NCBI GenBank assembly: GCA_021739645.1
Contig: JAIPBL010000059.1
Span: 1-38,646, forward strand
Origin: Saprospiraceae bacterium
Lineage (GTDB): Bacteria; Bacteroidota; Bacteroidia; Chitinophagales; Saprospiraceae
Length of the DNA stretch: 38,646 nt
Reading direction: 5' to 3'
The position numbers and the translations under genes were made by a program. This document shows positions 13,582 through 38,646 of this stretch, piece by piece; position 1 is the stretch's first letter; each line of letters starts with the position of its first letter. Below the pieces are notes generated by a model, which was given only the letters and a program-made list of their open reading frames with translations, was not told the DNA's origin and searched no databases.

Positions 13582-16500
13582 TTATTTGCGCAGCACGGTT
13601 ACACTTCCTTTTTTGGTGACAAAGGCATTTGTACCCGGATCGAAATAGTTGAAGACATAAAAGTAAACGCCGTCCGGCACGTCGTCTCCACCGACAGTAG
13701 TGCCACGCCAGAGGTTGTCGTCGTTGTAGTCTTCAGTACGGTAAACCAATTGCCCCCAACGGTTGTAAATTTCGAGGGTGTTGTCGTTGAAGCGGCTGAG
13801 GCATTTGATGAGGAACGTCTCGTTCTTGCCATCACCTTCCGGAGTTATTATCGTCCGAACTTCGCCGCACTCTGTATCATCGTCAACTTTAATAATTTTA
13901 GATACCTGGCAACCATTAGCATCAGTCACTCGCACGAGGTATTCGCCGGGAAAAAGTTCCGTCAAAACACTATCTGTTACCTCTGGGTATTTGGGCCAAA
14001 AGAAAGTGTAAGGCCATGTTCCACCAGTGACGATAACGCCAGCTACACCATTTGGCCCGCCACTATCGGACTCAGAAAAACCCATAGCCGAAAGTGGCAC
14101 GATGTCAGGTACCTCCACATTCTCAATCATCGTGCATCCATTGAAGTCGGTAACAGTGACTGAATAGTTATTGCCCGGCGTAAGATTATCAGCAGTTGGA
14201 TCTTTGTCGCCATTGCTCCATGAGTAGATATAAGGCTGCACACCGCCACCTACCGTGACCGAAGCTTGGCCCGAATCGCCAGGGGTACAACCACTGGCCG
14301 AAGCATTTGCCTCAGCGGAGATTTGGGTAGGCCCTTTTAATTCTAGCATGGCCGACATGGTACAGCCTTGCTGGTCTTCAATGGTTACGGTATAATTTAT
14401 TCCTGCGGACAGATCGTTCACAGCTTGGGTAGTTTTGTTGTTGCTCCACGTATAAGTATATGGGGCAAGGCCATTCAATGGTACCGCAATGGCTGCGCCA
14501 CCATTTCCACCGAAGCAGCGGATGTCGAAACCGTTATAGTTAGTGGTCACATTAGCTGTTACGCTAAGATTTGATACGGCTTTCAGCTCGTGGCTCTGCG
14601 TGATGCTGATGCCGCTGCCATTGTTATCCGTGATTGACACGGTATAAACGCCCGGTAATACCGGAGTTAGCGTTTGCTGGTTACCAACTGATGTTCCTTG
14701 GGCATTTGTCCATTTGTAGGTATAGCTCAAATTCGGAACAGCGCAGCTTGGCGACAATGACGGCGTTGCCGTGATAGAACCAGTTTCCTGCGGGCAATCC
14801 GGTTTATCATCTGTAAAGGTGGCCGTGAGTAGGCCAACACCTATGTCATTGAAGGCTGCGGCACAACCACTGGATGGGTCGGTAACTGTGACCGAATAAC
14901 AACCCTGCCCTATATTGAACAAATCCTGCGAGGTTGCTCCATTGTTCCATTGATAGGTGTATCCGACAGATTGACCTCCAGTAACTTCAATGTTCACATG
15001 CCCTAACTGGCCTATTTGAGTACCTGTAGCATGTGTAATTACAGGTGCTGGTGACAATGTGAGTGTTGTCTCATCTACCGTCACCGTTCCAGTTTTCGAC
15101 TGTTGGTCAACACCAGTACCACCGTCTGTAATGGAAAAGGTATGAATGCCACCTGCCAAGTTAGAAAAAGTATGAGTGGTCTCACTGGTGGTAAATACCT
15201 GTGTAGGTGTCCCTGAAATTTGATATTTGTAAGGCGGCGTACCACCTGAAATTGACAGCGTAACCTTACCATTGTTTTGCAAAGCACAAGCGTTGATTGT
15301 GCTAACTTGTGGTGAATCAAGTGGAACAGGCACATAATCCAAACAATAAGGCCCAGCTGTACCCGTGCAGCCATTACCATCGGTAATGGTTGTTGAATAG
15401 CAGCCTTCGCCAAGGCCGAAGATTGGGTTGGTAGTTTGTGTCGTTCCACTCCATTGATAAGTGTAGCCAGATCCAGAGCCGCCTTGGGTACTCAAAGTGA
15501 TAGAACCGTTGATTGATGCGGAACTTGTTGGCACTTCCAAGTTTGTGGCCACAACACTTGGTGGTTGTGTAGGCTGCGCAATAGTAAAGGTTTGGACGAA
15601 AGTCTGTCCAATGGATGGGCTAGTCACCGTCACCGTGTAGGTGCCTGGGCAAAGTCCAGTAGGATTGCGGATAGGTGGAACGGTGGAAGGCGTCCAAGCA
15701 TAAGTGTATGGCGGCGTAGTGACCCCACCAATAACATTGACTTCAATCAAACCATTGCATACCCCAGCGCAAGCATTTTTGAATTTGCTTGGGTTGGCTG
15801 GGTCTTCACCCATTGGCGCATATACTGGACCACATTTGGCCTTGGTACACATATTTGCGTCAGTCACCGTCACACAGTAGGTGCCGGCGCCTAAGCCAGT
15901 TGGGTTACAGCCTTGTATTTGCCCATTGGGGCCTGACCAAGCACAGGAAAATGGAGCCGTTCCACCCGTAATGGTCGTGGCTATTGCACCGTTGTTTTGT
16001 CCCTGAGTTGGGTTGGTTGTTGCAAAAATAATTACGATTGGCGACGGCTCAGTGATGGTCACGGAGCTCGTTTTCACACAACCAAAATTGTCACGAGCTT
16101 GTGCACTGTAAGTGCCGGGTACGAGGTTGTTGAACACGTTGGTCGCAACCCAAGTGCCTGTATTCAATCGGTATTCTTTGGTGTTGCCACCGCCCGTAGC
16201 GGTGATGGTGATACTTCCGTTAGCACCGCCATTGCATAGGATATTGGTGGAAGTCGCCGTAGCAGCAAGCGCACTTGTTGGTGCTGAAATGGTGTAGGCC
16301 GGAGACGAAACGATGGTGCAAGCTTTACAATCCGTGACGGTCACGGTGTAGTTGCCTGCGGCAAGGCCGGTGATGTCCTGCGTGGTAGCACCGTTGCTCC
16401 AAGCGTAGGTGTATCCCGTACAGCCAGTTCCGGTGTTTGTTCCGCCAGTGACGGTGATATCCACTGCTCCATTTGTTTCACCAAAACATGCAATGTCTTG

Positions 16501-18681
16501 GGAGGTAAAATTGAGGCTGAGTGCAGTTGGCTGTGTCACCGTGTGAGGGCCACTGGTCGCTGTTTGCACACCACCACAGCTCGTGACGGTAACGGAATAA
16601 GCGCCAGCCGGTACACCAGTCAGGTTTTGCGAGGTGCCGACGGTAGTGCCAGCCGCATTTTTCCAAACATAGGTTTTGGTGGCGCTGCCACCTGCCACTG
16701 TGATGGCCACGCCGCCATTGCTTTGGCCAGCGCAAGCCACGTTCGTGATGGTAGGAGGGGTGGCAATCGTGACAGGCCCGGTGCAGGTAATGCCAACCGT
16801 TACGCTGCCAGGGTCAAATGTAGGAATGACGTTTGGACTGTTACAACTCCCCACCTCGACTAATAACGGATCGCCATTGAAGGTAATGTTACCCACGCTT
16901 CCGTTGGCACCAATTACATTAAAACATACCTGAAAAATAACGGTGCCGTCGGCGACCGTGCTGCCGTTTACGGGGTCAGGTGATGCCCACGAAAACCTGA
17001 GTATGCCGTTGGCCGTTTCCGCGGGTGGGCCAAAATTAGCCGATGTCAAATCAGGCAAGCCAAAAGCTTGGACTGAAGCAAATTGACTGATGGCTTGATT
17101 GAAGTGGATGGTATATTGTGCACTTACGATACAGTCGAAGTTTTCGACTGTGAAGTCAACACATATCTGAGAGCCAGTAGGCGATTCCACCTCGCCGGCA
17201 ATGAATGTTAGGTCAGTGTTTCCACCACCACCACCGCCACCATCACAAATTTCGAGGTCGCCAGTGATGCCTTGAAAGGTGACTTGTTGGCTGTTGCCAT
17301 TGTAAACTTCCACTGGCGTTACGGCACTATTAAACTGGAAAGGTGTCGTAGCACCACAATTGTTGGGACCGATGGCATTTAGGCAAACCTGGTAAATGAC
17401 AGTTCCATTTGGTACGGTGACTCCCGTGGCGTTGGGGTCCGACCAAGAGAAAGTAATCAACCCTTGGCCACCTTGGTTAGTACCGAAGCTGCCAGCGGTT
17501 AGGCCCGGTAGCCCATAACTCCCTGCTGGAATGTTGGCAAGCAGCCATTTCGACTCGTTGAACTCCATCGTGTATTGCATGGACAAGATGTTGGTAAAAT
17601 CATTTACCGTAACATCCACGCAAATCTGGGCGCCCGAAGCAGCAGTTTCATCCGAGGCTATTACGGCGAAACCATTTACCGGCCCACCGCCACCGCCACC
17701 GCCACCGCAGATTTCAAGGTCTCCTGGAACACCTTGAAAAGTGACTTGTTGGCTATTGCCATTATAAACTTCCACTGGAGTTACAGCGCTATTAAAATCA
17801 AACAGCGTAGTGGAACCACAGTTGGCAGCACCGATTGCATCTAAGCAAACTTGATAAATAACCGTCCCATTTGGTACGGTGACTCCCGAAGCATTGGGAT
17901 CCGACCACGAGAAAGTAATCAATCCTTGGCCACCTTGGTTGGTACCGAAGCTGCCTGCGGTTAGGCCAGGGAGTCCATAACTGCCTGCTGGAATGTTGGC
18001 AAGCTGCCAATTTGATTCATTGAACTCCATCGTGTACTGCATGGATAAGATGTTGGTAAAATCATTTACCGTAACATCCACGCAAATCTGGGCGCCGGGA
18101 GCAGCAGTTTCATCTGAGGCAATTACTGCGAAGCCGTTGGTTGGCCCGCCGCCACCGCCGCCGCCGCCGCCGCCACCTGAACCTCCATTTACGGAAGCTC
18201 CTATGAACGTAGTACCCGCAGTTAGGTTAACGCCATCTCCATCATAAACCTCTTGTGGAGTGGGGGCATTCCCAAAATTGATAACTGCTGGTTGTGAGGA
18301 AAGTACATGAAAGGTGAGGCTGTACAGCACCGTGCCGTCAGCAGCTGTCACACCCGACGCATTCGGGTCGGACCAAGAGACTCCCAAAAAGCCGTTGCCT
18401 GTCCCGGTTAGCCCGAAACTGGAACCATTTATACCCGGCAATTGAGAAGGGGTAATGTTGCCGACAGGTGACACGAACTCCAGCACCGCAGAATTCCAGT
18501 TCATAGAATATTGGAAACTAAGGATGTTGTCGAAGTCGGACACAACAATGTCAACGGTAAAATTGTCACCCACATTGGCTGTAATAGTTTGTGGATTGAC
18601 AGAGAAAGTAGGCTGGGCGGCCAGATGCGTAGCAAAAAGCGCAAACAACCCAATGGCGAGGTTGGTAATCGGTCTTTTCAT
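13582..18681 (-). CDS. Giant T9SS surface protein: cohesin-like modules, SprB repeats, type B sorting domain
   Basis: This 1699-aa secreted protein starts with a signal peptide (PITNLAIGLFALFATHLAAQ). Next come four cohesin-like modules (about residues 24-165, 180-322, 334-478 and 488-632), each with a FDNILSFQYSM-type core and an LPGxxxxSFG..GxxxFSWSDP region. Glycine-rich linkers separate them, the first with an unbroken run of eleven glycines. About twelve SprB-type repeats follow (to about residue 1600), each with an NGxxxxxVTGG..PYTYxWSNG..T..LxxLxxGxYxVTVTD pattern. The last 90 residues are a gliding-motility-associated type B T9SS domain (ITPEGDGKNETFLI, YNRWGQLVYRTEDY, DGVYFYVFNY). 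A PorP/SprF partner follows. The role is probably surface adhesion or assembly. The ATG at 18681 is chosen because it directly precedes the signal peptide. Confidence 0.9.
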   Translation of the reverse strand: MKRPITNLAIGLFALFATHLAAQPTFSVNPQTITANVGDNFTVDIVVSDFDNILSFQYSMNWNSAVLEFVSPVGNITPSQLPGINGSSFGLTGTGNGFLGVSWSDPNASGVTAADGTVLYSLTFHVLSSQPAVINFGNAPTPQEVYDGDGVNLTAGTTFIGASVNGGSGGGGGGGGGGGPTNGFAVIASDETAAPGAQICVDVTVNDFTNILSMQYTMEFNESNWQLANIPAGSYGLPGLTAGSFGTNQGGQGLITFSWSDPNASGVTVPNGTVIYQVCLDAIGAANCGSTTLFDFNSAVTPVEVYNGNSQQVTFQGVPGDLEICGGGGGGGGPVNGFAVIASDETAASGAQICVDVTVNDFTNILSMQYTMEFNESKWLLANIPAGSYGLPGLTAGSFGTNQGGQGLITFSWSDPNATGVTVPNGTVIYQVCLNAIGPNNCGATTPFQFNSAVTPVEVYNGNSQQVTFQGITGDLEICDGGGGGGGNTDLTFIAGEVESPTGSQICVDFTVENFDCIVSAQYTIHFNQAISQFASVQAFGLPDLTSANFGPPAETANGILRFSWASPDPVNGSTVADGTVIFQVCFNVIGANGSVGNITFNGDPLLVEVGSCNSPNVIPTFDPGSVTVGITCTGPVTIATPPTITNVACAGQSNGGVAITVAGGSATKTYVWKNAAGTTVGTSQNLTGVPAGAYSVTVTSCGGVQTATSGPHTVTQPTALSLNFTSQDIACFGETNGAVDITVTGGTNTGTGCTGYTYAWSNGATTQDITGLAAGNYTVTVTDCKACTIVSSPAYTISAPTSALAATATSTNILCNGGANGSITITATGGGNTKEYRLNTGTWVATNVFNNLVPGTYSAQARDNFGCVKTSSVTITEPSPIVIIFATTNPTQGQNNGAIATTITGGTAPFSCAWSGPNGQIQGCNPTGLGAGTYCVTVTDANMCTKAKCGPVYAPMGEDPANPSKFKNACAGVCNGLIEVNVIGGVTTPPYTYAWTPSTVPPIRNPTGLCPGTYTVTVTSPSIGQTFVQTFTIAQPTQPPSVVATNLEVPTSSASINGSITLSTQGGSGSGYTYQWSGTTQTTNPIFGLGEGCYSTTITDGNGCTGTAGPYCLDYVPVPLDSPQVSTINACALQNNGKVTLSISGGTPPYKYQISGTPTQVFTTSETTHTFSNLAGGIHTFSITDGGTGVDQQSKTGTVTVDETTLTLSPAPVITHATGTQIGQLGHVNIEVTGGQSVGYTYQWNNGATSQDLFNIGQGCYSVTVTDPSSGCAAAFNDIGVGLLTATFTDDKPDCPQETGSITATPSLSPSCAVPNLSYTYKWTNAQGTSVGNQQTLTPVLPGVYTVSITDNNGSGISITQSHELKAVSNLSVTANVTTNYNGFDIRCFGGNGGAAIAVPLNGLAPYTYTWSNNKTTQAVNDLSAGINYTVTIEDQQGCTMSAMLELKGPTQISAEANASASGCTPGDSGQASVTVGGGVQPYIYSWSNGDKDPTADNLTPGNNYSVTVTDFNGCTMIENVEVPDIVPLSAMGFSESDSGGPNGVAGVIVTGGTWPYTFFWPKYPEVTDSVLTELFPGEYLVRVTDANGCQVSKIIKVDDDTECGEVRTIITPEGDGKNETFLIKCLSRFNDNTLEIYNRWGQLVYRTEDYNDDNLWRGTTVGGDDVPDGVYFYVFNYFDPGTNAFVTKKGSVTVLRK
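17246..18145. repeat. Tandem duplication of a 465-bp cohesin-like module
   Basis: The second and third cohesin-like modules of the giant gene (17711-18145 and 17246-17680) are nearly identical over most of their length, for example across the stretch encoding MQYTMEFNES and the one encoding GLTAGSFGTNQGGQGLITFS. They are bounded by GGC/GGT-rich glycine linkers (18146-18186, 17683-17709, 17219-17245). This is a recent internal duplication and a likely site of copy-number change. Confidence 0.8.
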
Positions 18682-18777
18682 ATGTTCGGAACTGGGACGA
18701 TAATTGTGAAAAAATGTAATCGGAAAACAATTGGCAAACCCTGTAATTCCACCATGGGCAGCCAACTTGATTAGGCA

Positions 18778-19581
18778 TTACTGCATAATCAACTGCCTCG
18801 TGGCAGTGGCTCTTGCGGTTTCAAGGGTGTAAAAGTACGACCCTGCATTCGAAAGCATATCCCGACTAATGGGTATTCTGCTAATTCCGGCAGGAAATTT
18901 CTTGTTTTGGGTAAAAACAGCTTTCCCGCTGTTGTCAAAAATAGTCAATTTAGCATCAACTCCTGTATTCAGATTGAAAGAGATGTACGTAATTTCGGAA
19001 AAAGGGTTCGGGCTATTTTGAAATAAAGTAAAATCTTCCGTCAAAGTCTCCTTACTGGCATTAACGCCAGAGATAGTCACCTTGCCGTTGTCAATATCCA
19101 CGCTAACCACCTGGTCGAAATTGCCAATTTCAACTACGAATGGCGGATCAACAGTTGTGTCGTCAGCGATTTCAAGCATCGTGTTGGTCCCCATTTGACC
19201 TACGGCCTTGAAGTTGAGGTTGAACAGCGTGGAATTGTCATCCAGCGAAACGCCAGAGTTGGTCATTGGGTCGAACCAATACCAGCTAACCCTGAGTCGG
19301 CCTTCGGTTGCAAACGCACTATTGAAACTGTTTATCGCTGTAAAATCAGGCATATTGACGTTCAATCCGGTTACAGACTGAAACTCAATGATGTTGGGAT
19401 TCCAAATGATGGCATATTGCATGGAAGCAATATTGTCAAAATCGGAAGCTTTGATACCAATGGTAAACCATTCCCCAGGATTAACGAGCTTGTCGGGTAC
19501 TGTGAGGGAAACCGTTTGTGCATTCAAACTGAATGCTGTAAAAGCTGCAAGAAGGAATGAAAAAATATTTCGCATTTTCAT
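18778..19581 (-). CDS. Secreted cohesin-like protein with type A T9SS sorting domain
   Basis: This 267-aa protein has a signal peptide (NIFSFLLAAFTAFSLNAQ), one cohesin-like module (residues about 22-170) and a type A T9SS C-terminal domain. The module has the same pattern as those in the next gene: PGEWFTIGIKASDFDNIASMQYAIIWN, then LPDF-like and RLRVSWYWFDP stretches. The sorting domain runs from FTLFQNSPNPFSEITYISF to GSYFYTLETARATATRQLIMQ. Such domains direct export across the outer membrane and are cleaved on secretion. It lies 96 bp upstream of the giant gene on the same strand. A small secreted cohesin-like protein could bind a dockerin-like partner, and one is encoded just upstream. 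ATG codons at 19581 and 19575 are both possible starts. Confidence 0.88.
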   Translation of the reverse strand: MKMRNIFSFLLAAFTAFSLNAQTVSLTVPDKLVNPGEWFTIGIKASDFDNIASMQYAIIWNPNIIEFQSVTGLNVNMPDFTAINSFNSAFATEGRLRVSWYWFDPMTNSGVSLDDNSTLFNLNFKAVGQMGTNTMLEIADDTTVDPPFVVEIGNFDQVVSVDIDNGKVTISGVNASKETLTEDFTLFQNSPNPFSEITYISFNLNTGVDAKLTIFDNSGKAVFTQNKKFPAGISRIPISRDMLSNAGSYFYTLETARATATRQLIMQ

Positions 19582-19631
19582 GTTAATCGGTATTACAAGT
19601 AGTTTGCCAAAACTTAATATGACGAAATAAA

Positions 19632-19669
19632 GGTGACCGGGCTTTAGAAAAATTCCTCAACCGGTCACC
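19632..19669 (-). terminator. Possible attenuating hairpin between surface genes
   Basis: Perfect 9-bp arms GGTGACCGG (19632-19640) and CCGGTCACC (19661-19669) enclose a 20-nt loop; on the minus strand TTTATTT follows. It lies in the 111-bp gap after the 1402-aa gene and could partly terminate transcription before the 267-aa gene. Confidence 0.45.
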
Positions 19670-19692
19670 GTTTCTATTTGATTTCAAATTGA

Positions 19693-22600
19693 TTACTCTA
19701 AAATCACCATGCGCTTCGTGGCAGTGCCAGCCCCGGTATTTAGAGAATAGTACACTATGCCCGTTGCTGGGAGTTCGCTGCTGTTCAACTGAACTTCGTT
19801 GTAGCCTGCGGCAAATTCACGCTCAATGGTTTTCAAAACCTTGCCCGAAACGTCCGTGATTTTCAGGTTTGCACTGCCAGCTTTCGGCAGGTTGAAGCCA
19901 ATGGTCGTCATACCTTTAAATGGGTTCGGTGTATTTTGGTAAAGTGCAAATTGCTGTTCTGCCTTGTTGTTAAATGTCAGCTGCACATTGAGCAGGTCAC
20001 TGTTGGTACGGTATGCCTCCGCTTTCGTGAAACGAGAGTTCAGGGAAACCATTTCACTCAACTTCCCGCTTTCCTTCGCAAGGAACACCACACTGAACAT
20101 TGAATTTTCGTTAGCCGTGCCGTTCCAGCTCGCCGTCAGGGCGCCTTCTTTCAGCAATGAAAAGCCGAAATTCTCCTCACTGGCAACACCAGATTTGACA
20201 TCCAGTACTTTAAGTGCATTGACATCAAAATTCAGGGTAAACTGAAAGCCCATCACGTCCAGCTCTTTGGCCGAAAACTCAACGGTCACTTCTTCGCCCT
20301 TGGTCACACTGCGGTCATCGGCATTCAGCTCGAAAGTGCCTTTGCTGCGCTCTTCGTTGCTGCCCGTCAGGTTGACGGCGGCGCTGCCGTTTACGTCGCC
20401 GATTTTGATAGCCACGAAATTGAGATTGTTTATGGTTGCACCGAAATCATTGATATTGATAATTTCTGGGAAGCCGTTCTCAAATGGATTGTCGGGATTT
20501 TGGAACACAAAGTCTTTATCCACGAACCTCCACGAGGTATTGCTAGGAAAAGTAGTGTTGATATTTAGAATCAACTTGCGAATTTCAACAATATCAAACG
20601 TAGTCACGCTGTTCGACTTGTTTGCGTCAGCGGCGATAACCTTATATGGTGAACCAAGCAAGGTCGAACCCAAAACATGTTTGCTAATTAATACCAAGTC
20701 AAAGGTGGAGACACCGTTTAAAGGGTCTATGTCATGAGTTGGTGTTATCGTATAGTCGTTGCCCATCAATGGAAGGAAAGAATACATGCCTCCTGGGCTT
20801 GTCGTGCTGGTTTGGTCAAATCCATTTGGGCTGTTTACACTAACAGAAACGCCCTCAACAGTTTGACTTGCTTCATTGCTAATTACGCCTGCAAGCAGCG
20901 GGTCATTGCTGCCACACGTCCCCATGTTATCCTGAATGATGATGAAGGTTTCACAAAAATCTTGGTTATTAGCAGCATCAGTCACCCAAAGCTGTACTAT
21001 TTGTTGTCCTACCTCATCGCAGGTGTAAGTGTTTCCAATATCGTTGACATCGGCGGAGAAGGAAAATTTCAGTGTACCGGGACAATTGTCAAAACTGCCA
21101 GCATTCAGGTCGGATGCCCAAACGTCCACCATGCCAGTCTGCATCAGCTCGATTACGAGGCCGTTTTTGCAGTATGGCGTTGGCTTTTTGCAGTCCTTGA
21201 CGGTCAGGGTGGTGTTGCAAGCTGTCTGGTTGTTGCAGTTGTCTTTTGCCACATAGCGCACTACATAGGTGCCTGGCCCTACGTTGTTGAACGGGCCGAA
21301 TCCGGACACCCAAACACCGCCAAAGTTGATTTGAGCAGTTACATCAATATTAGGGCTACAGTCCTCGATTTCAGGCAATGGCAATTGCAGAGCAACACCA
21401 CAAGTGGTGCCATTAATACAGACATCAGGCAAGATGCAGTTATTCACAAACACTGGGTCAACCGTGTCATTTACCTTAATTATTTGCTGGTAAACAATGT
21501 AACCGTCCCATGGGTCAGAGTCCGGATCGGTATCTGGGCCAAGGGCACGTGTAGCATCGAGCAGTGTTGGCCGGTTTGGATTTGAGTTGCCACTGCGCCA
21601 GGAATCCCGGAAGGTGCGACCATCACAATCGCCGTCGCTATCAATATCGCACTGCGGGAAAGGAAGGCCAAGCTGGTTCTCTGGTTTTTCCACCACTTCT
21701 TGGTCCACGTTAGCACCCACCACGCACCAGTTGATGATAGTCCAGTCCCGAACGATTTTATAACAGGCATCATTCACTGCGTAAACAACGTCATCGTAAG
21801 AGATGGCCACCAACTCGCAGTTTTCGTAAAATATTTTGGGGTCACCAAAGTCAGGCACGGTCGAACCACAGTTCACAGTAATGTCCGCCGGGAATTCAAC
21901 TGCCCAGTCGGAGACGTGATCAACGAAGATGGTTTGGTTACAAGCCTGAGGCGTTGTGTTATTGCTAGCATCTTTGGCCGTGAACGACCGAGTTATGGTG
22001 CCTTCTAAACACTGGTTGAGGCTAACATTTGTGTTGCAAGTAATCGAAACACCGCAGTTGTCGGAGTAAGTTGGTGAGCCAAAAAAGCCGGACAGTGTGG
22101 TACACTGTTGCTGGTTGTTTTGGCCACTAAGTTGTGTTTCAAGGTTATCGGCGTACCAGTTGCAAGTGATGCGCTGGTTGGGTGGGCAGCTTACCAATGT
22201 TGGGTTAAGCTTGTCGTTTACCTTCACTTCCACCATACAATCGTTGTAGTTGCCAAAGCAGTCAAAGGCACGGAACACGACCATCACTGGACTGTTGGCT
22301 ACATCTTCGCAGCAGAAAACCACCGAAGGTCCAAATATGGTGTCGATATGATTGTCATCACAAAGGTCTGTCATGCGGCGCACCTCGAAGTGGTCGAGAC
22401 AGCAGTTGTCATAAGTAGCACTGTTGAATGCACTGGCAAAAACTGTTGAGCCATTGCCCGTTGTTAAGTTTACATCCGTATATGAAAGACAAATGGTTGC
22501 AGGAGCAATGTCGTCAATGACGGTAATTGGCACTGCCAAACTTGTTACGTTGCCGCACGCATCCGTCACTTGGTAAGTGATGATGTGTGGGCCTAAAGGC

Positions 22601-23901
22601 AGACCAGGCGCAGGAATCGTACCGCCATTGGCAGGGTTGCCACCAAGGTAAACGGCCTCACCAATTGGTGTATTTATTTTGATAGTCCAAGTGCCATTGC
22701 AATTGTCTGTTACTGTGGGCGGGGGCAAGAACCCGACTGACTTACATGGTTGCGGATGCTGGCCTGGTACGTTTGCACTGGCCGTAAACGGAGGGCGAGT
22801 AACCACTGGCGCTTTCGTGTCCATCACTTTTATCACTTGGATATTGTCTTCTCCGCCAACACCGACTGTTACCACAAGTCCCGTACACCAGTTCAGTACC
22901 GTCCAAGTGCGCACCACCTTAAAGCTGGAACCACAAATAGTAATGACTTGATCGCTTTTTGATTGTTGGTAATTGCAATACTGGCCAACAATATTAGCGA
23001 CTACCCCCGAACCAGTTAGGGCAAGCACATCAGCATCGTCGAGGCCGTTGCCGGGGCAACCAGTGCCGCCATTTAGCAAATTGGTACTGTTAACGCTGGC
23101 ATTGTCGCCAAGCGGGTCGTCATTGTCATCGCAGTCTGGGTTTAGGTTTACGTCAATCACCAAGTTGGTGGCTGGGTTCGAATCTCCAACGTAACGGTGC
23201 TTTGCCGCAGCAGTGATGATATTTGGGAAAGCGTTGTACTGCTCACAAGTCCAAATAATGTCATTTGGAAAATCAACAACTATGGGCCGATTTACGGTAA
23301 TCACCTGGCTACAGAAGTTTGATGTGTTGCCAGAAGCATCGATGGCTACATAGTTGCGGGTTATGGTGACATAACCATTTGCACAAAGACCAACTGTATT
23401 TATCTGCTCACCTGTCAAGTTGATGGTAGGGTCCGAATCGCAGTTGTCCACCGCAGTAGGGCCGGCGACCAAACTAAGGTCGTCAGAGCAATTGACAGCA
23501 ATATTTGTGCAAGTGAGAACAGGCGGAAGCTTGTCTTCGATATGTATTTGACCCCAGCAGGAGTTGCCCCCGCCGGTCTGGTCTGTGATTTTGACAGTTA
23601 AATTGGTGTTGAACCATTGGCTGGAGTTGGTGATGGTCACCTGGTTCAAGCCTGAAACAACTGGAGTCCAGTTATGAGTAATTTCAATTAAATAGTCGTG
23701 GCCTGGTATTGGGTTGCCTTCGAGGATTTGGTCTGCGTTTACACCACCTTGGCAAGCGTTGGGCGTGTTGTCAACTGAAACTTGGACGAGATTGTTGCAG
23801 ACCATTACTTGGGCTTGCAGGAGATTGGAACTGCCTACCAGCAGTAGGGAGAGAAACGCCCAAGAGAATACCGGAATCCTAGAGAAATTCGTTCTGATCA
23901 T
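19693..23901 (-). CDS. Large T9SS surface protein with HYR-like, dockerin-like and cohesin-like modules
   Basis: This 1402-aa secreted protein begins with a signal peptide (PVFSWAFLSLLLVGSSNLLQAQ). Residues about 30-1000 hold a series of cysteine-rich HYR-like/adhesion repeats with recurring DNC, VNCSDD and ACGN motifs (for example PPVLTCTNIAVNCSDD and LPLGPHIITYQVTDACGN). At about 1055-1110 two calcium-loop helices resemble a type I dockerin (DPLNGVSTFDLVLISKHVLG and DANKSNSVTTFDIVEIRKLI), with a GDVNGS loop near 1170. A cohesin-like module follows (about 1190-1310), and then a type A T9SS sorting domain (FALYQNTPNPFKGMTTIGF to KRMVILE). It is the first gene of the four-gene surface run. The ATG at 23901 precedes the signal peptide; the open frame upstream to 23961 is leader. 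Confidence 0.88.
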   Translation of the reverse strand: MIRTNFSRIPVFSWAFLSLLLVGSSNLLQAQVMVCNNLVQVSVDNTPNACQGGVNADQILEGNPIPGHDYLIEITHNWTPVVSGLNQVTITNSSQWFNTNLTVKITDQTGGGNSCWGQIHIEDKLPPVLTCTNIAVNCSDDLSLVAGPTAVDNCDSDPTINLTGEQINTVGLCANGYVTITRNYVAIDASGNTSNFCSQVITVNRPIVVDFPNDIIWTCEQYNAFPNIITAAAKHRYVGDSNPATNLVIDVNLNPDCDDNDDPLGDNASVNSTNLLNGGTGCPGNGLDDADVLALTGSGVVANIVGQYCNYQQSKSDQVITICGSSFKVVRTWTVLNWCTGLVVTVGVGGEDNIQVIKVMDTKAPVVTRPPFTASANVPGQHPQPCKSVGFLPPPTVTDNCNGTWTIKINTPIGEAVYLGGNPANGGTIPAPGLPLGPHIITYQVTDACGNVTSLAVPITVIDDIAPATICLSYTDVNLTTGNGSTVFASAFNSATYDNCCLDHFEVRRMTDLCDDNHIDTIFGPSVVFCCEDVANSPVMVVFRAFDCFGNYNDCMVEVKVNDKLNPTLVSCPPNQRITCNWYADNLETQLSGQNNQQQCTTLSGFFGSPTYSDNCGVSITCNTNVSLNQCLEGTITRSFTAKDASNNTTPQACNQTIFVDHVSDWAVEFPADITVNCGSTVPDFGDPKIFYENCELVAISYDDVVYAVNDACYKIVRDWTIINWCVVGANVDQEVVEKPENQLGLPFPQCDIDSDGDCDGRTFRDSWRSGNSNPNRPTLLDATRALGPDTDPDSDPWDGYIVYQQIIKVNDTVDPVFVNNCILPDVCINGTTCGVALQLPLPEIEDCSPNIDVTAQINFGGVWVSGFGPFNNVGPGTYVVRYVAKDNCNNQTACNTTLTVKDCKKPTPYCKNGLVIELMQTGMVDVWASDLNAGSFDNCPGTLKFSFSADVNDIGNTYTCDEVGQQIVQLWVTDAANNQDFCETFIIIQDNMGTCGSNDPLLAGVISNEASQTVEGVSVSVNSPNGFDQTSTTSPGGMYSFLPLMGNDYTITPTHDIDPLNGVSTFDLVLISKHVLGSTLLGSPYKVIAADANKSNSVTTFDIVEIRKLILNINTTFPSNTSWRFVDKDFVFQNPDNPFENGFPEIININDFGATINNLNFVAIKIGDVNGSAAVNLTGSNEERSKGTFELNADDRSVTKGEEVTVEFSAKELDVMGFQFTLNFDVNALKVLDVKSGVASEENFGFSLLKEGALTASWNGTANENSMFSVVFLAKESGKLSEMVSLNSRFTKAEAYRTNSDLLNVQLTFNNKAEQQFALYQNTPNPFKGMTTIGFNLPKAGSANLKITDVSGKVLKTIEREFAAGYNEVQLNSSELPATGIVYYSLNTGAGTATKRMVILE

Positions 23902-24379
23902 GGATGATAATTTGTTAAGACACAATCGAAAACCATAAACAACGCAAGACCTAAGGCTCACATTGGCTTAGTTTTTCAGTGCAAGTGATGGCTACATCGG
24001 GTAACCTGAACTAGGAACTTGTTTGAAAAACTGCTTAATTGCGAACTTGACCAAAATCGTAACACTGCTTTGAAATGACTCTCAAAGACTACTACAGTAC
24101 AGGCTAAACCCCATCAAAAGGAAATTGAAAACGAATAAAGGAAAGGCGATAAAAAAATGGGAACACTTTGTAATGCTGTAGTTCATGGGAAATCAGTTTA
24201 AATCAGTCTTGCCGCAAAATTAAGCACTTTATTTCAAAATAGGAAATAACAGACAAAATTTGAACCAATGAAATAGTCGTAAGGGAAAGGAGGCAGTGAA
24301 ATGGGTTTTTTCAGCATGTTTTTAAGCCCACAAGTGATAGTTGGCAATCGTTATGCCAATCTACCCAAAAAACAAGTTT
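23902..24379. other. Intergenic region upstream of the surface-protein run
   Basis: About 480 bp without a gene. It must carry the promoter of the four-gene run on the minus strand and the 3' end of the response-regulator gene. A CAAAATTA sequence at 24214-24221 reads TAATTTTG on the minus strand and matches the Bacteroidota -7 element TAnnTTTG, but no properly spaced -33 element is seen. Otherwise I see nothing definite in it. Confidence 0.4.
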
Positions 24380-30829: not shown

Positions 30830-31888
30830 TTAGAAGTTCGGGCAATAAACGCCACGGCGCTGGTCGCCACAGAATTTGTATGCAAGTGCGAACTCGAATG
30901 CACCGTTATTGTTGCTTGCGGGTTTCAGTGCAGAAACGTTAACGTCATAGCTGAACCCGAGCGTGAACTGGTTGTAGTCGAAACGGGTAGATAGAATCAC
31001 GGCATCGGTCAAGACTCCAGTTTCCACTTTGTTCGACACACGCACCCAAGCACCGAAATGCACCGCTTGATAGTTGCTGAAATTGCCACGACCACTGCCA
31101 AGGAGGAACTTCAAGCTGGTACCAGAGTTCACTTGGAACGATGGGCCTTGCTTCATTACAATCACACCCGGCACCAAGCCAAGGCGAGGAGCAACCTCGA
31201 ATTCACCGCCAGCATGGACGGTAAAGCGGCTGTAAAGGAAGTCTTTATTACCTGAGCTGAAAGATTGATCGGCCCTGTTCAAGTGGTGATAAGCACCACC
31301 TGCATAAAAATTGTTGTTCTCATCGAAAACAGAGAACCAAAGCAAGCCTGCTCCTGCATCGGCAAAAAGAAAATTGTCATCGTCGAAATTGGAATCTTCG
31401 AGCGATGGGCAACCATTGCAGAAGCCACCTTGGCCATCATGTTGGGTACCCCAGCGCAATTTCAGAAATTCAATACTCCGCTGTGCAAGACCCGCCTCGG
31501 CACCAAACACCAAATAGTGAGCTTCCTTGCGGCTACCAGCCATCCGTTTGCTGTACGAAAAGGAAAGTTTGCCTGTCGTAGTTGCAAAATTGGCCTCGCC
31601 AGCTTGGTCACCCCAAAAAGTGCCGCCAATGCCGAAGTTGTCGTAACGGCCAACTGGAATCTTTTGGTCGTAGCTGACATTGTACGTGGAGTAAGCATTG
31701 CTTTTAAGCACACTTGCCCACTGATTGCGATAGTTGGCTGTCAAGCGAATGTTACAATTCATCAAACCAGTCATGGCTGGATTGAGATTGAGGGGGGACA
31801 TGTAAAACTGGGAGAAGTGGATATCTTGCGCAGAAGCAGTGAATCCAGTTCCGATGAGAAGGACAAGTAGTAAATGTTTGAAATTCAT
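30830..31888 (-). CDS. PorP/SprF family type IX secretion outer-membrane protein
   Basis: This 352-aa beta-barrel protein has a signal peptide (KHLLLVLLIGTGFTASAQ) and the family start DIHFSQFYMSPLNLNPAMTG followed by NYRNQWASV. The strands continue to FDYNQFTLGFSYDVNVSALK and FEFALAYKF at the C-terminus. It is longer than the copy at 12555-13490 and carries an unusual FCNGCPSLEDSNFDDDNF insertion with two cysteines. Unlike the first copy, it has no type B cargo gene beside it. It may serve a distant cargo or be the general copy. It appears to be a single-gene unit with its own terminator. Confidence 0.93.
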   Translation of the reverse strand: MNFKHLLLVLLIGTGFTASAQDIHFSQFYMSPLNLNPAMTGLMNCNIRLTANYRNQWASVLKSNAYSTYNVSYDQKIPVGRYDNFGIGGTFWGDQAGEANFATTTGKLSFSYSKRMAGSRKEAHYLVFGAEAGLAQRSIEFLKLRWGTQHDGQGGFCNGCPSLEDSNFDDDNFLFADAGAGLLWFSVFDENNNFYAGGAYHHLNRADQSFSSGNKDFLYSRFTVHAGGEFEVAPRLGLVPGVIVMKQGPSFQVNSGTSLKFLLGSGRGNFSNYQAVHFGAWVRVSNKVETGVLTDAVILSTRFDYNQFTLGFSYDVNVSALKPASNNNGAFEFALAYKFCGDQRRGVYCPNF

Positions 31889-32993: not shown

Positions 32994-35900
32994 ATGAAAA
33001 CACTACGTTTACTACTGCTGCTGCTAGGCAGCTTTTCCGCTTTTTCCCTTTCTGCACAACTCGACTTCAAAATCCAACTGATGCCCGATGGCACGAAATG
33101 GGGCATTTATATTGCGCCGCAGACTGGAACAGCTCCTACGGCCAATACAATTACTGGTTCTGGCCAAATCACCTTGGTTGCTCCGCTCAACTTTGCCATT
33201 GTGGACTTCAATCCCGTGAGTGGTTTTTGGGCAAGCAATGCCGTCATCAATGGGCCAGACGAAAACCCCACCAAGTCGTACATTTCGTTCGGCCTGATGA
33301 ACGACATCCCGCAAATTGTCTATTCCGCTACGGCTCCTACCCTGCTTTTCACGTTCAGAAAAGCCAACAATTACTGCCCCGATGAATTTTACCTCATCGA
33401 AAACGGCATAGACCCTTTTGACCAATTGCCCAACTCGGAAAACAGCAATCCCGGCAACGAAATCACGGTGCTCGATTTTGGCACCGCCCCATTTTCTACC
33501 TATAATTATGGGAAAAACATCGCCCCATTTGCCTGGGACTGCCACGACTGCGACGGTGATGGCATCCCGAACGCCTTCGAAGACACCAACGGCAACGGCG
33601 TCTATGACCCGACAATTGACGTTTCCGACCTCTGCAACAACTCCGCCCCAAGTTGCCTCGAAATAACGGGCGCACAACTCCACTGCCAAGGCGGTGGCAC
33701 TGCCTGCGGCAACAACCCGTCCGGCCAGCTTTCGCTCGTCGTGGACATTGCGGGCGGACAAGCACCATTTACAGTAGAATACACGGACGGCAGTGTCACT
33801 TCCACGCTCCAAAACTACCAGAGCGGCACACCGTTCAACGTGGACGCTGCCAACGGCGCTGTTTTCAAAATTATCGCCGTGACCGGCAACGACGGTTGCG
33901 AAGCAGCAGCCAACGGCCTCAACGGCGAAGTGCCAGTCACCATTTTGGGAGCGCTCCAGTTCACGACGCAACCCGTGGGCGCACTGATTTGCCCTTCGGA
34001 AAGCGCCTTGTTTGAAGCGTGTGCCACAGCCACCAACAGCAGCTTCGACATCCGGTGGGAATATTCCCCCAACCAAACAGCAGCTTGGCAGCCCATCAAC
34101 ACCACGACGGGGCTTTTCGAAGTAAACAGTTCAAGCGATGGCTGCAGCACCTTGCACGTCAACGAAGGAACTGGCTTGAACGGCTACCGCTTCAGGGCCG
34201 TGGCAGAAGGTCAAAATGCAGCAGCGGTCAACTCGCAAACCGCCACTTTGAACTTGAAAGGCCCACTGGTAGTGAGCGCCAATCCTACTGATACAAAAAT
34301 TTGCGATGGTGAAACCGTCACGTTCAGCGCCGCTTTTGCAAACCTTGGCGCAGGCGACATCAATTACACCTGGGAACTCAGCCACAACGATGGCCTCACT
34401 TGGTGGGACGGTATGCCGGGAATGGGCATTTCCGGCATTGACTCGCCGACATTGACCATGCAAGCCATTCACTTCAACGCCAATGGCGACATCTATCGGC
34501 TCCGGGCGCAGGTGGACGGTTGCGATTTCTTTTACACGCAGCCAGCCTCCATCACGGTGGAAGGCCCGATTGAAATACTGTCCATCGTCAGCCCAATGGC
34601 AGTTTGCCGTGGCGAGGATGCCTGCTTCGAAGTGCAGGCCGAACTGTTCGGCACTGGCCAACTAAGCTACCAGTGGCAGGAGCGCCCAAGTGGCAGCGCC
34701 ACCTGGACGAACGTGCCCGGCGCTTCGGCTCCGATTTTCTGCCTGGCAAACACCGAAGGCCGCAACGGCTACTGCTACCGGGCGCTGGTGCGCACGGCAA
34801 GCTGCCCGGCTGTCACTTCCGCAGAGGCTTGCCTCGTCGTGGAAGACAAGGCCGTTTTTGCGCAGCAACCACAAAACGCTGCGATATGCGCTGGTGAAAT
34901 TGCAACGCTGACTGCCAGTGCCGCCATTGATGCCGACTACGCTGGGCAAGTGAGCTACCGCTGGCAAACATCTGCCGATGGCGGCCAAAGCTGGCAAGAC
35001 CTCGACAACGACTCGAACTTTGACGGCGCCAACGGCAACATCCTGACTATCAGCGACTTGTCCGCATTGGGCAACCTACAATACCGCCTCAGCGCCTCAA
35101 CGGGCATTTGCGAAGCAGCCAACTCCGATGCCGCCACTGTGACGGTGGAAGGCCCGGTCGCCTTCAGCGAACAGCCTGCGGGAATGACGATTTGCCCCGG
35201 TTCTGGCGCCAGCTTCTCGGCTGCGGCAAACGTGCTGGGTGCTGGCAATATTCAACTCCAGTGGCAGTCCAGCACCAACGGCTTTGACTGGGCAAACGTT
35301 GCCGAAGGCAACAACTACGCTGGCACACAAACGGGCACGCTGACCGTGCAAAACGCCACCGCTGGCCGCTTGTTCCGCCTCGGCGCTTCGACGGGCATTT
35401 GCGGAGCAAAATACTCCGAGCCAGCTGTGCTGACCGTGGAAGCACCGATTTTGTTTAGCCAACAGCCGGAGAGCGCAACGGTCTGCCCGGATGAGGCGGC
35501 ATCGTTCTCCATCGCAGTGGACGGTGGTAGCGGCACATTGTCGCTGCAATGGCAGTCAAGCCCAACTGGTCAAGTCTGGACGGACATTGCCGAAGGCAAC
35601 ACCTTCATTGGCACACAAACTTCCACACTGACCGTGGCCGAAGCGACAGGCTTGGACGGCACACAGTTCCGTTTGGTGGCTGCTTCGCAAAACTGTACGG
35701 CCTACTCGGCTTCGGCGGTGCTGACGCTGGAGGACGATGCCGTCTGCAACCCAATTCCAGCCTACAACGACTGCGTTTCGCTGGCCGTGAAAAAGCTCGA
35801 CGGCAACATCGGTTGGAGCGTGTGGGCAAAGACGGACAGCAGCTTCACGGAGACGCCCTACCAATTGCCGACAGGCGGAAAAGTCACGTTGGTGGTACCC

Positions 35901-36605
35901 GTCGGCTTCACAATCCAGGGAGTGACGAGCTTCAACGGTGGCAAGTGGAACCCCGGCAAAGTGATTTTCAACCCAGCGCAAGACCCCGGCAAAATCTACT
36001 TCGAATACAACCTGACGCCCAACCTGAACTTCTTGGAACTGACGCCCAATTCCGAACGGCTTTTGTTCAGTTTCTCGGTGGTGGGCGGCTGCCCCGAGTC
36101 GCTGTCGCTGATGGACAACATCGTGCCACCGGGCTTCTCCCAGAACCTGTTCACTGGTTTTGGTGCGGGCAACGGGCCGGACGTGCCTTTCCGCTTCTGC
36201 GGCAACGCCCCCCAAGATGCGTGGGTATGCCCTCCGACATCGAACATGATGGCCCCGACGAGTGGCAGCACCGTGGCCACTGGCCAGCAGCTTGACCTCG
36301 ACCCAAGCGCCGTGCAGGTTGATTTTGGAAAAATGGCAAACGTGGACCTAGAGCCTACCAGCTTCTTCGGCGTGGCACCGAACCCCGTTCGGGACGAACT
36401 GAAGGTGGCTTTCAAAGAAAATATTTTGGAAAAAACGTCCTCGCTCCGCCTCTGGAACCTGCAAGGCCAAGTGCTTTACCAAACCGCCATCGAGGGCGAA
36501 GCCGTTCGCCGCCTCGACCTCGGCCAGACCATTCCGGGCATCTACTTCCTCACCCTCGAAGTGGACGGCAAGCTGGTGCAGCGGGAGAAGATTATCGTCC
36601 AATAA
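32994..36605 (+). CDS. Large secreted protein: LQLMPDG modules, calcium loop, six Ig-like repeats, type A T9SS domain
   Basis: This 1203-aa protein begins with a signal peptide (TLRLLLLLLGSFSAFSLSAQ). Residues about 23-180 form a module with core LDFKIQLMPDGTKWGIYIAP, ending in AWDCHD. A thrombospondin type 3-like calcium loop follows (DCDGDGIPNAFEDTNGNGVYD, here about 182-202). After a SprB-like stretch there are six Ig-like repeats (about 319-913), each with an xxQPxxxxICxGExxxF start and a YxWQxSxxGxxW centre. A second, divergent copy of the N-terminal module lies at 921-1080 (SLAVKKLDGNIGWSVWAK). The last 80 residues are a type A T9SS sorting domain (FGVAPNPVRDEL to KLVQREKIIV). It probably displays ligand-binding modules at the cell surface. 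No enzyme domain is visible. Confidence 0.88.
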   Translation: MKTLRLLLLLLGSFSAFSLSAQLDFKIQLMPDGTKWGIYIAPQTGTAPTANTITGSGQITLVAPLNFAIVDFNPVSGFWASNAVINGPDENPTKSYISFGLMNDIPQIVYSATAPTLLFTFRKANNYCPDEFYLIENGIDPFDQLPNSENSNPGNEITVLDFGTAPFSTYNYGKNIAPFAWDCHDCDGDGIPNAFEDTNGNGVYDPTIDVSDLCNNSAPSCLEITGAQLHCQGGGTACGNNPSGQLSLVVDIAGGQAPFTVEYTDGSVTSTLQNYQSGTPFNVDAANGAVFKIIAVTGNDGCEAAANGLNGEVPVTILGALQFTTQPVGALICPSESALFEACATATNSSFDIRWEYSPNQTAAWQPINTTTGLFEVNSSSDGCSTLHVNEGTGLNGYRFRAVAEGQNAAAVNSQTATLNLKGPLVVSANPTDTKICDGETVTFSAAFANLGAGDINYTWELSHNDGLTWWDGMPGMGISGIDSPTLTMQAIHFNANGDIYRLRAQVDGCDFFYTQPASITVEGPIEILSIVSPMAVCRGEDACFEVQAELFGTGQLSYQWQERPSGSATWTNVPGASAPIFCLANTEGRNGYCYRALVRTASCPAVTSAEACLVVEDKAVFAQQPQNAAICAGEIATLTASAAIDADYAGQVSYRWQTSADGGQSWQDLDNDSNFDGANGNILTISDLSALGNLQYRLSASTGICEAANSDAATVTVEGPVAFSEQPAGMTICPGSGASFSAAANVLGAGNIQLQWQSSTNGFDWANVAEGNNYAGTQTGTLTVQNATAGRLFRLGASTGICGAKYSEPAVLTVEAPILFSQQPESATVCPDEAASFSIAVDGGSGTLSLQWQSSPTGQVWTDIAEGNTFIGTQTSTLTVAEATGLDGTQFRLVAASQNCTAYSASAVLTLEDDAVCNPIPAYNDCVSLAVKKLDGNIGWSVWAKTDSSFTETPYQLPTGGKVTLVVPVGFTIQGVTSFNGGKWNPGKVIFNPAQDPGKIYFEYNLTPNLNFLELTPNSERLLFSFSVVGGCPESLSLMDNIVPPGFSQNLFTGFGAGNGPDVPFRFCGNAPQDAWVCPPTSNMMAPTSGSTVATGQQLDLDPSAVQVDFGKMANVDLEPTSFFGVAPNPVRDELKVAFKENILEKTSSLRLWNLQGQVLYQTAIEGEAVRRLDLGQTIPGIYFLTLEVDGKLVQREKIIVQ

Positions 36606-36690
36606 AGTTCGACAGTTCGACAGTGGGCAGTCAGGTGGTACTTCCACGTCCCTGACTGCAAACTGCCAACTGTCGGACTGCCAACTTAAT
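36606..36690. repeat. Iterated GTTCGACA repeat with inverted half
   Basis: Two copies of GTTCGACA followed by GTGGGCAGTCAGG are mirrored by CCTGACTGC and GCCAACTGTCGGACTGCC, forming a long imperfect hairpin. It starts right after the stop codon of the preceding gene and ends before the leader of the next one. Confidence 0.75.
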
Positions 36691-36716
36691 AACCACCCCC
36701 CTCAAAACCATTTTTT

Positions 36717-38646
36717 ATGAAAATTGCTACTCAATTTCGTTGGCTCCTCGTCTTGAGCCTCTTTCCTACCTTTCTTTTTTCACAAAATGGGATGAACCTA
36801 AAACTCCAACTCATGCCGGACGGGCAAACTTGGGGCGTGTACGTGAAGCCGGATGATTCTATTTCACCGAGCAATTTGACCATAACAAGTTGGGCACAAG
36901 TCACTTTGGTGATGCCTATTGGTTATCAATGGTCATCGTTAGTAAGTGTTAGTGGAAATTGGGCGGCTCAATACCCTTACGATGGAGTTGAAGAGCTTCC
37001 AGAAAATAGAATTCAGTATTTCACCCTTTTGGATGAATCAATTCCTGTTATTTATGCAACTAGTAGTGAAACACTTCTATTCACATTTAAGGGTGATGGG
37101 AATTGCCCAAATGAAATTTCACTTTGGGATGAAAACACTCAACTAATTCTTTACCCCAATGATAGTTGGTGGTCATTCAACCCTCCAGGGAATATTTTTG
37201 AAGTATTCGACATGATGACTGCCAGCTTTTACACTTATGGTCATGATTACGCCCCCGCCGCCTGGGACTGTCACGACAACGACAACGACGGCATCCTCAA
37301 CGCCCACGAAGACACCAACGGTAATGGCATTTTCGATGCGGGCGATGCCTCCGACCTAAACACCCCAGACTTTGCAAGCTCGGCTGGTGGCTTTAATTTC
37401 AAACTGCAACTCATGCCCGATGGAGATAACTGGGGCGTGTATGTCAAGCCTGAAGATGGGCTTTTCCCAAGTGTAAATACCATCACTGGCACAAGCCAAG
37501 TAACGGTGGTGATGCCCAAAGACTATGCTTGGTCACAGTTGGAAAGCGTGAGCGGTACTTGGTCGGCAGATGCTGGGGTCAATGGCCCAGTAGAGAACCC
37601 CACCAAAAAATACGTGATGTTCGGACTGGTATCAGACCAGCCGCAAATCAACTACCAGAACGGGCATGAAACCCTGCTTTTCACTTTCCGAAAAGCCGCT
37701 GATTGTCCCAATGACCTGCACCTGTACAGCCAACAAACCGACCCAATGCCAAGTCCAGGTGGCTACAACCTCGGAAATGATATTGCCGTAATTGACATCG
37801 GCCTACCGCAATTCCCGTTCTATACCTATTCGGGCAACTACGCCCTGGCCGCCTGGGACTGCCACGACAACGACGGCGATGGCATTCCCAACGCCCTCGA
37901 AGACACCAACGGCAACGGCATTTTCGACCTGGGCTTGGATGCTTCTGACCTCAACAGCGCAGACTCCGCCCTTGGCACTGGCTGCATGAAACTCAAACTA
38001 CAACTCCTGCCCGATTCCTCCGGCTGGGGCGTGTTCGCCAAGCCGTTCGATGGGTATTTGCCTTCGGCAAACGCCGTGGCCACTGGCGGACGGGTGACCG
38101 TTGTCGCACCGGAAAACTTCGATTTCGGAGGCATGGAAAACGCCACGGGCGAGTGGTTGCTGGTCAGCACGCTGTACGGTCTGCCCAGCAATCCCAGCCG
38201 CAAGTTCCTGACTTTCGAGCTGACGCCCAACGCCACCAACCTCGGCCTGAGCGCCACGGAAGCCACCCTGCTTTTCCAGTTCGACAAGCTGGGCGATTGC
38301 CCCGACTCGTTGTACCTCCTCGAAAACTACCAGTCCATGGGACTTGAGCCAAACGAATTCAGTGGCTTCGACCCGAACAGTTTCACGTCCAGCAGCTTCG
38401 AGTACTGCGGCGTCTATGCCCGAAAATCCTGGCGCTGCAAAGCCGCATCCACGCCCGGCGGCACCATCATCATCGTGGCGACGGAAGACAGCCTCTCAGC
38501 TCCGCAGACGGAGGCCGTTGACCGGGATGCCGAATTTTCCGAAGGGCAAACATTGGCCGAAGGCCAAAGCTTCACCCTCGCCCCGAACCCGGCGGGCAGT
38601 TTCGTGAACATCACAGTTTCGGAAAATTTGGCCGAAGGCCAAACGA
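36717..38646 (+). CDS. Large secreted protein with three LQLMPDG modules and calcium loops, 3' truncated by window end
   Basis: I translated this frame in full: it is open for 643 codons from the ATG at 36717 to the window edge. A signal peptide (WLLVLSLFPTFLFSQ) is followed by three copies of the module seen in the preceding gene, with cores LKLQLMPDGQTWGVYVKP (about 26-180), FKLQLMPDGDNWGVYVKP (about 224-380) and LKLQLLPDSSGWGVFAKP (about 423-575). The first two end in AAWDCHDND and are joined to the next by calcium loops (DNDGDGIPNALEDTNGNG type). The last ends in a WRC and has no calcium loop. SFTLAPNPAGSFVNITVSEN starts a type A T9SS domain, so only a short C-terminal piece is missing. 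It is a paralogue of its upstream neighbour but has no Ig-like repeats in the visible part. Confidence 0.85.
   Translation, partial: MKIATQFRWLLVLSLFPTFLFSQNGMNLKLQLMPDGQTWGVYVKPDDSISPSNLTITSWAQVTLVMPIGYQWSSLVSVSGNWAAQYPYDGVEELPENRIQYFTLLDESIPVIYATSSETLLFTFKGDGNCPNEISLWDENTQLILYPNDSWWSFNPPGNIFEVFDMMTASFYTYGHDYAPAAWDCHDNDNDGILNAHEDTNGNGIFDAGDASDLNTPDFASSAGGFNFKLQLMPDGDNWGVYVKPEDGLFPSVNTITGTSQVTVVMPKDYAWSQLESVSGTWSADAGVNGPVENPTKKYVMFGLVSDQPQINYQNGHETLLFTFRKAADCPNDLHLYSQQTDPMPSPGGYNLGNDIAVIDIGLPQFPFYTYSGNYALAAWDCHDNDGDGIPNALEDTNGNGIFDLGLDASDLNSADSALGTGCMKLKLQLLPDSSGWGVFAKPFDGYLPSANAVATGGRVTVVAPENFDFGGMENATGEWLLVSTLYGLPSNPSRKFLTFELTPNATNLGLSATEATLLFQFDKLGDCPDSLYLLENYQSMGLEPNEFSGFDPNSFTSSSFEYCGVYARKSWRCKAASTPGGTIIIVATEDSLSAPQTEAVDRDAEFSEGQTLAEGQSFTLAPNPAGSFVNITVSENLAEGQT

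Follow-up and report, generated by a model that had tools for sequence, protein, structure and literature searches.

Contig JAIPBL010000059.1 (C60) of the Saprospiraceae bacterium genome GCA_021739645.1, which comprises 6.16 Mb in 147 contigs, was analysed over its entire length of 38,646 nucleotides (hereafter the window). Two tandem genes at its end, P0001 (open reading frame [ORF] 32994-36605, 1203 amino acids) and P0002 (ORF 36717-38645, 643 amino acids), are both open, and the contig end cuts P0002. The two proteins share a module of approximately 160 residues, here termed MOD, with two copies in P0001 and three in P0002. We propose that MOD is the receptor half of a docking system on proteins exported by the type IX secretion system (T9SS) and that a C-terminal domain of other secreted proteins, here termed DLD (dockerin-like domain), is the ligand half; we hold this proposal, including the binding that it implies, to have about an even chance of being correct.

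The original prediction described five copies of one domain in these two adjacent genes, and the present analysis agrees: the copies align over 181 columns, 18 of them invariant, and profile matches fall a few codons from the coordinates first given. Identity to copy 1 is 23, 40, 50, and 34 % for copies 2 to 5, respectively; the two lowest values belong to the C-terminal copies, which had been described as the most divergent. A profile of the five copies matched its own rows at E-values of 1.4e-60 to 1.7e-76, and copy 1 as a single query retrieved the other four at 1.6e-47 to 3.2e-7; together with the alignment, these values argue that the repeat is not due to chance. Conserved elements of the module are LLFTF...CPD and AWxC. 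That no named family covers it was likewise borne out. A Pfam scan of 49 module members at E-values up to 0.5 gave weak matches to ten families, with Cohesin not among them; TSP3_bac (6 members) and EF-hand (2 members) were most frequent, and the best E-value was 0.0046, to RhaB_D2 in one member. NCBIfam gave no match over cut-off on the module of either P0001 or P0002, a PDB sequence-profile search with MOD gave nothing credible, and no relative turned up in viral collections (BFVD matches were weak). An identity as a TSP3 or EF-hand repeat was dropped because the weak TSP3 match in P0001 sits in the linker. Judged by these sequence searches, no curated family covers the module, and MOD and DLD represent two unnamed domain families.

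A profile search identified 17 module copies in the window's own genome; each of 14 listed genomes of the same genus had 8 to 21 matches, and 19 of 148 relatives overall had a match. In a sample of the order, the module was present in 24 of 396 genomes and 15 of 164 genera, and in a sample of the phylum in 3 of 395 genomes, the window's genome included; the order- and phylum-level searches scored at most 9 to 12 candidates per genome, and copy counts from them are therefore lower bounds. The 17 named module loci come from metagenome-assembled genomes (MAGs) labelled Saprospiraceae, Saprospirales, Bacteroidetes, or Bacteroidota, plus one Sphingobacterium and one Emticicia. The latter two loci (L075 and L076) are closely similar and lie in MAGs labelled Sphingobacterium thalpophilum and Emticicia agri that share an isolate prefix; one or more of these labels or bins may be erroneous.

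The last copy in each protein had been proposed to be a capping copy without the calcium loop. In the window, a DxDxDG...ED loop follows copies 1, 3, and 4 and neither of the two C-terminal copies. We counted the loop in the 19 multi-copy proteins that the window and the named loci L060-L074 provide: of 32 copies in non-last position, 31 are followed by it, as compared to 0 of 19 last copies; the sole non-last miss is copy 1 of L069, where a loop is visible on reading its tail. Conversely, a pair of cysteines, one just before the first strand and one in a YCG/FCG-type element, is present in 17 of 19 last copies and in none of the 32 others, the two last copies without either cysteine being those of L069 and L072. 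We infer from the sequences that the two cysteines may form a disulfide, which would probably stabilise the cap copy. In a midpoint-rooted tree of 87 copies, with a bootstrap short of full convergence, the 20 copies labelled as caps formed one side of a branch (ultrafast bootstrap 100; Shimodaira-Hasegawa-like approximate likelihood ratio test 99), and this clade divides into two halves, one made up mostly of P0001-type and the other mostly of P0002-type copies. The label covered the last copies of P0001- and P0002-like proteins, which accordingly appear as one clade with a cysteine pair of its own, consistent with a capping copy; the last copies of L025 and L026 were unlabelled and fall elsewhere.

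A cohesin-like fold, put forward earlier as a guess, is supported by structure comparison and not by sequence profiles. An AlphaFold2 model of the copy 4 region (37392-37973) reached a predicted local distance difference test score of 93.7, its best matches in two structure comparisons were cohesins, and it shows the jelly-roll beta-sandwich fold of Cohesin (PF00963). On this model, the module is predicted to fold like cellulosomal cohesins. Chains of the carbohydrate-binding module (CBM) families CBM2 and CBM3, also sandwiches, occupy lower places in the same lists and fewer rows than cohesins. At the profile level, hhalign of MOD against 17 Pfam cohesins of the same genome gave 0.2 % and hence no link; this set comprised 17 of 20 cohesin loci, excluding L113 and L114 (stops) and L122 (by choice). 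MOD further resembles Cohesin in its tandem copies on surface-anchored proteins and in a companion C-terminal domain with two calcium-type loops; it differs in that none of the 49 members matches PF00963, in its LLFTF...CPD and AWxC elements, and in the T9SS sorting domain of P0001. While P0001 ends in a domain typical of T9SS type A cargo (Por_Secre_tail, TIGR04183), the module itself belongs to no T9SS family that was matched. Non-cellulosomal cohesins and dockerins are already known.

Often, giant proteins whose module is N-terminal lack a visible T9SS sorting domain; in its place, their last approximately 100 residues comprise two DxNxDG repeats and an EQLP-type end. In six of seven members of this domain, the two halves align beyond all 500 shuffles, at approximately 40-50 % identity, and thus form two tandem calcium-loop repeats as in dockerins; 51 of 52 DLDs (at least 50 bits, in fetched loci) lie within 6 residues of the stop. 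We named the domain dockerin-like because of its duplicated calcium-type loops and C-terminal position; as with Dockerin (PF00404), a duplicated DxNxDG loop ends enzymes and large proteins. It differs from Dockerin in its conserved EQLP-type end and in that no relative was found in Pfam, NCBIfam, or PDB; the PF00404 profile matched 0 of 7 members, PF00404 places in the window's genome differ from its nine DLD places, and hhalign of DLD against the dockerins of that genome gave 2.7 %. The DLD loop (DxNxDGxxxYxGxxND) appears by eye to be four residues longer than the dockerin loop. A structure model of DLD was poor, and helices were seen in that poor model only. A further region without a name is common to the giants upstream of DLD (MRDxLR ... 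AIVDWVFxELR ... RHRNHLGVMT, by eye; L066:15626-16405), and the 260-residue ends of L066 and L074 had no Pfam or NCBIfam match.

MOD and DLD occur in the same genomes. In the order sample, DLD was found in 53 genomes, i.e., all 24 module genomes and 29 others. The overlap gave a Fisher P of 4e-24 when counted by genome and, with 15 of 15 genera, of 6e-14 when counted by genus, in samples of phylogenetically related genomes. Pfam cohesins, used as a control, were present in 134 genomes, 38 of them with DLD, and in 22 of the 24 MOD genomes; within the Pfam-cohesin genomes, DLD was present in 22 of 22 with MOD versus 16 of 112 without MOD.

Gene order also connects the two domains. We considered 54 DLD places, i.e., the first 60 listed minus six with short flanks (at least 1.5 kb downstream was needed); at 20 of these, the next gene starts with the module, 145-627 bp from the DLD end. 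The share differed between groups: 15 of 18 places outside the window's genus but within its family, 5 of 29 within that genus, and 0 of 7 in family f12. By comparison, a match to a cohesin profile built from the window's genome followed DLD at 0 of the 54 places, frames scoring higher for MOD not being counted as cohesin; this result and the co-occurrence control disfavour Pfam cohesins as DLD partners. The reverse view, taken in loci that had been retrieved for their module, shows DLD within 1 kb upstream of 13 of 19 module-first genes outside the genus versus 1 of 9 in the window's genome. In the phylum sample, all three module genes in other orders have DLD 132-207 bp upstream, and the pairing occurs in a second lineage of the class. 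The order was also predictive, as it pointed to diverged modules in genomes scored negative or weak: such a module starts the gene after DLD in G246 (no module match) and in G042 (twice) and G364 (weak matches), and this group of four matched the MOD profile with hhalign at 94 % (E 1.1e-7), as compared to 0.2 % for the cohesin control. Proteins with both MOD and DLD exist, and small MOD genes with type A-like tails stand after DLD genes. One of the genes after DLD in G042 (L136:10243-15999) carries a diverged module at its start and a Pfam-type cohesin far downstream.

From what was computed here, namely the domain family with its architectures, the clade of cap copies, the gene order, and the co-occurrence across genomes, we suggest that MOD may be a new cohesin-like beta-sandwich serving as a docking site on T9SS-exported, anchored proteins, with P0001 and P0002 as putative scaffoldin-type receptors. 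In P0002 and its relatives, calcium loops separate two to four consecutive standard copies, and the cap copy lies beside the sorting domain. The likeliest ligand would be DLD, whose tandem pair of DxNxDG repeats terminates other large secreted proteins encoded in these genomes. MOD would bind DLD, calcium would be needed, and docking would hold giant adhesins, or enzymes in family f12, on the surface. Proteins with MOD and a sorting domain would act as anchors, and those with both MOD and DLD as adaptors. As partners in the window's genus are mostly non-adjacent, the ligand of P0001 and P0002 would come from elsewhere in the genome, among its nine DLD places.

Family f12, where DLD places spread over many contigs, provides candidate cargo. 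From these places, 20 stretches (L246-L265) were hand-picked, with 21 DLD frames, of which 20 were scanned (L262, which contains masked sequence, was left out). Nine of the 20 scanned proteins match enzyme families in Pfam, namely four M43 peptidases, an M64 peptidase, a haem peroxidase, a lysyl oxidase, a SASA esterase, and a BD-FAE/carboxylesterase; the others are adhesive, repeat-like, inhibitor-like, or unmatched. Three f12 genomes (G163, G183, and G198) have 4 to 11 module matches, and three long proteins carry four or five modules each, one of these proteins ending, by eye, in a type B-like tail. By analogy, the multi-module proteins and DLD enzymes of f12 resemble scaffoldin and cargo.

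Several observations weigh against a MOD-DLD docking system. The f12 genome G193, which is 82 % complete, has no module match. For four f20 genomes, the value was 56 %, no more than a hint, and there was no match to the group from G246, G042, and G364. In G015, G076, G307, and G392, another large gene follows DLD at the single places viewed, and the DLD giants of these genomes (L150-L153 and L306-L309) stand in rows, mostly without a module directly after them. For the cohesin comparison, control alignments against immunoglobulin (Ig) domains gave 1.6 % for MOD and 19 % for cohesins.

Three other explanations deserve consideration. The module may be a structural or ligand-binding adhesin domain with a cohesin fold, binding for example carbohydrate, with DLD unrelated and merely located in the same adhesin clusters; we find this rather unlikely, even though the structure lists include CBM-type chains, giant proteins of adhesin-like build with Ig or TSP3 arrays make up many of the carriers, and the module is often N-terminal, the usual place of a binding tip. 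Docking better fits the presence of MOD after 20 of 54 DLD places, as compared to none for cohesins of the type found in the window's genome, as well as the tandem copies and the DLD enzymes of f12 opposite multi-module proteins. That DLD is instead a new T9SS C-terminal sorting signal, and the module the N-terminal domain of a neighbouring T9SS cargo, seems unlikely to us. The location of 51 of 52 DLDs beside the stop, and their occurrence both on giants without another sorting domain at the end and on f12 enzymes, do suggest a signal-like position and portability; DLD is, however, an internal duplication with DxNxDG loops, a feature not known from T9SS sorting domains, MOD genes beside DLD carry ordinary sorting signals (L087 by Pfam, others by eye), and the tie between MOD and DLD would be left unexplained.

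In a third reading, one surface domain simply expanded within a lineage, without any specific partner, and both co-occurrence and gene order mirror the common ancestry of clusters of large secreted proteins. This would be consistent with matches concentrated in one family, mostly in genomes of 4-9 Mb, and with the phylogenetic relatedness of the samples. We nevertheless regard it as improbable, given that the pairing recurs in a second lineage of the class, that it led to diverged modules downstream of DLD in negative or weak genomes, and that Pfam cohesins, in 22 of 24 MOD genomes, show no such pairing at the 54 places.

The features of P0001, P0002, and their upstream neighbours are listed in Table 1. 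By eye, a signal peptide precedes copy 1 in P0001, and a SprB-like stretch follows the calcium loop. Both genes had been described as encoding T9SS cargo; this holds for P0001, with a sorting domain that exceeds the cut-offs of both Pfam and NCBIfam (TIGR04183; 35.3 bits, cut-off 23), while in P0002 a probable domain of this type has only begun at the contig end. The P0002 homologue L064 has, by eye, a complete sorting-domain tail. The locus is conserved among the nine named loci compared, with both neighbour genes upstream of the P0001 homologue where present. A P0002 homologue in UBA6168 (L062:9875-11674; L090:11319-13118) has no sorting domain beyond the cap copy, as if the frame shifts, through either an error or a real change.

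Table 1. Features of P0001, P0002, and neighbouring genes, in window coordinates
Feature	Coordinates	Strand	Basis or remark
PorP/SprF-like outer-membrane protein	30830..31888	-	synteny with P0001 kept in 5 of the 9 named loci, 85-94 % identity
ArsR/MarR-type regulator, divergent from P0001	32224..32856	-	present in 6 of the 9 named loci, 82-93 % identity
P0001, secreted: N-terminal module, calcium loop, SprB-like stretch, six Ig-like repeats, cap module, T9SS type A sorting domain	32994..36605	+	
Module copy 1, standard type	33060..33548	+	alignment and profile match
EF-hand/TSP3-like calcium loop after copy 1 (DCDGDGIPNAFEDTNGNGVYDP..DVSDL)	33546..33632	+	sequence; weak TSP3 match
Six Ig-like repeats, approximately 100 residues each	33951..35732	+	by eye and alignment; one matches Pfam I-set at 24.5 bits, over cut-off
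Module copy 2, cap type: one extra Cys just ahead of strand 1, another in FCG; ends in WxC; without calcium loop	35775..36236	+	
T9SS type A sorting domain (Por_Secre_tail) of P0001	36378..36599	+	Pfam 35.8 bits, cut-off 27
P0002: three tandem modules; contig end falls inside start of probable sorting domain	36717..38646	+	
Module copy 3, standard type	36792..37277	+	alignment and profile match
Calcium loop after copy 3	37275..37358	+	
Module copy 4, standard type; used for structure model	37392..37868	+	alignment, profile, model
Calcium loop after copy 4	37866..37952	+	
Module copy 5, cap type	37986..38441	+	alignment, profile, cap count, tree
Start of probable T9SS type A sorting domain (SFTLAPNPAG...), incomplete at contig end	38568..38646	+	by eye

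The window also contains three neighbouring genes with Pfam cohesins (13582-23961, reverse strand). One encodes 1727 amino acids that include four cohesins, SprB repeats, and a sorting domain of type B, another 267 amino acids with a single cohesin and a type A sorting domain, and the third 1422 amino acids with a weak dockerin match, a cohesin just below the Pfam cut-off, and a type A domain; this layout of giant and small anchor mirrors that of the new module. Across the genome, there are 28 Pfam cohesin matches at E-values up to 0.1 (20 over cut-off) and 22 dockerin matches (11 over cut-off), indicating by sequence match that it holds many non-cellulosomal cohesins.

One study reports cohesin-related genes in two Bacteroidetes MAGs (PMC8547425). 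Among the papers listed in our search of work on T9SS, cohesins, and dockerins, with most subscription papers and preprints outside it, we found no description of a docking system of the kind proposed here. It is conceivable, with a probability that we put somewhat below even, that Bacteroidota possess a cohesin-dockerin-like system of their own, seen by neither Pfam family, with T9SS-anchored scaffolds of up to five MODs, adaptor giants that carry MOD and DLD at opposite ends and might link up head to tail, and DLD cargo. The DLD-tagged cargo of f12 would include peptidases, esterases, haem peroxidase, and lysyl oxidase, and the whole would amount to a surface assembly resembling a cellulosome, with cargo that is chiefly adhesive and proteolytic. 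As the presumed partners are encoded by adjacent genes in many genomes, docking is directly testable. Even if docking should prove wrong, a module with 8 to 21 matches in each of the 14 listed genomes of the genus merits a family entry. If true, MOD-DLD docking would assign a function to two unnamed domain families, provide new docking pairs, and account for the surface retention, in Saprospiraceae and their relatives, of enzymes and very large secreted proteins in which no T9SS sorting domain is recognised.

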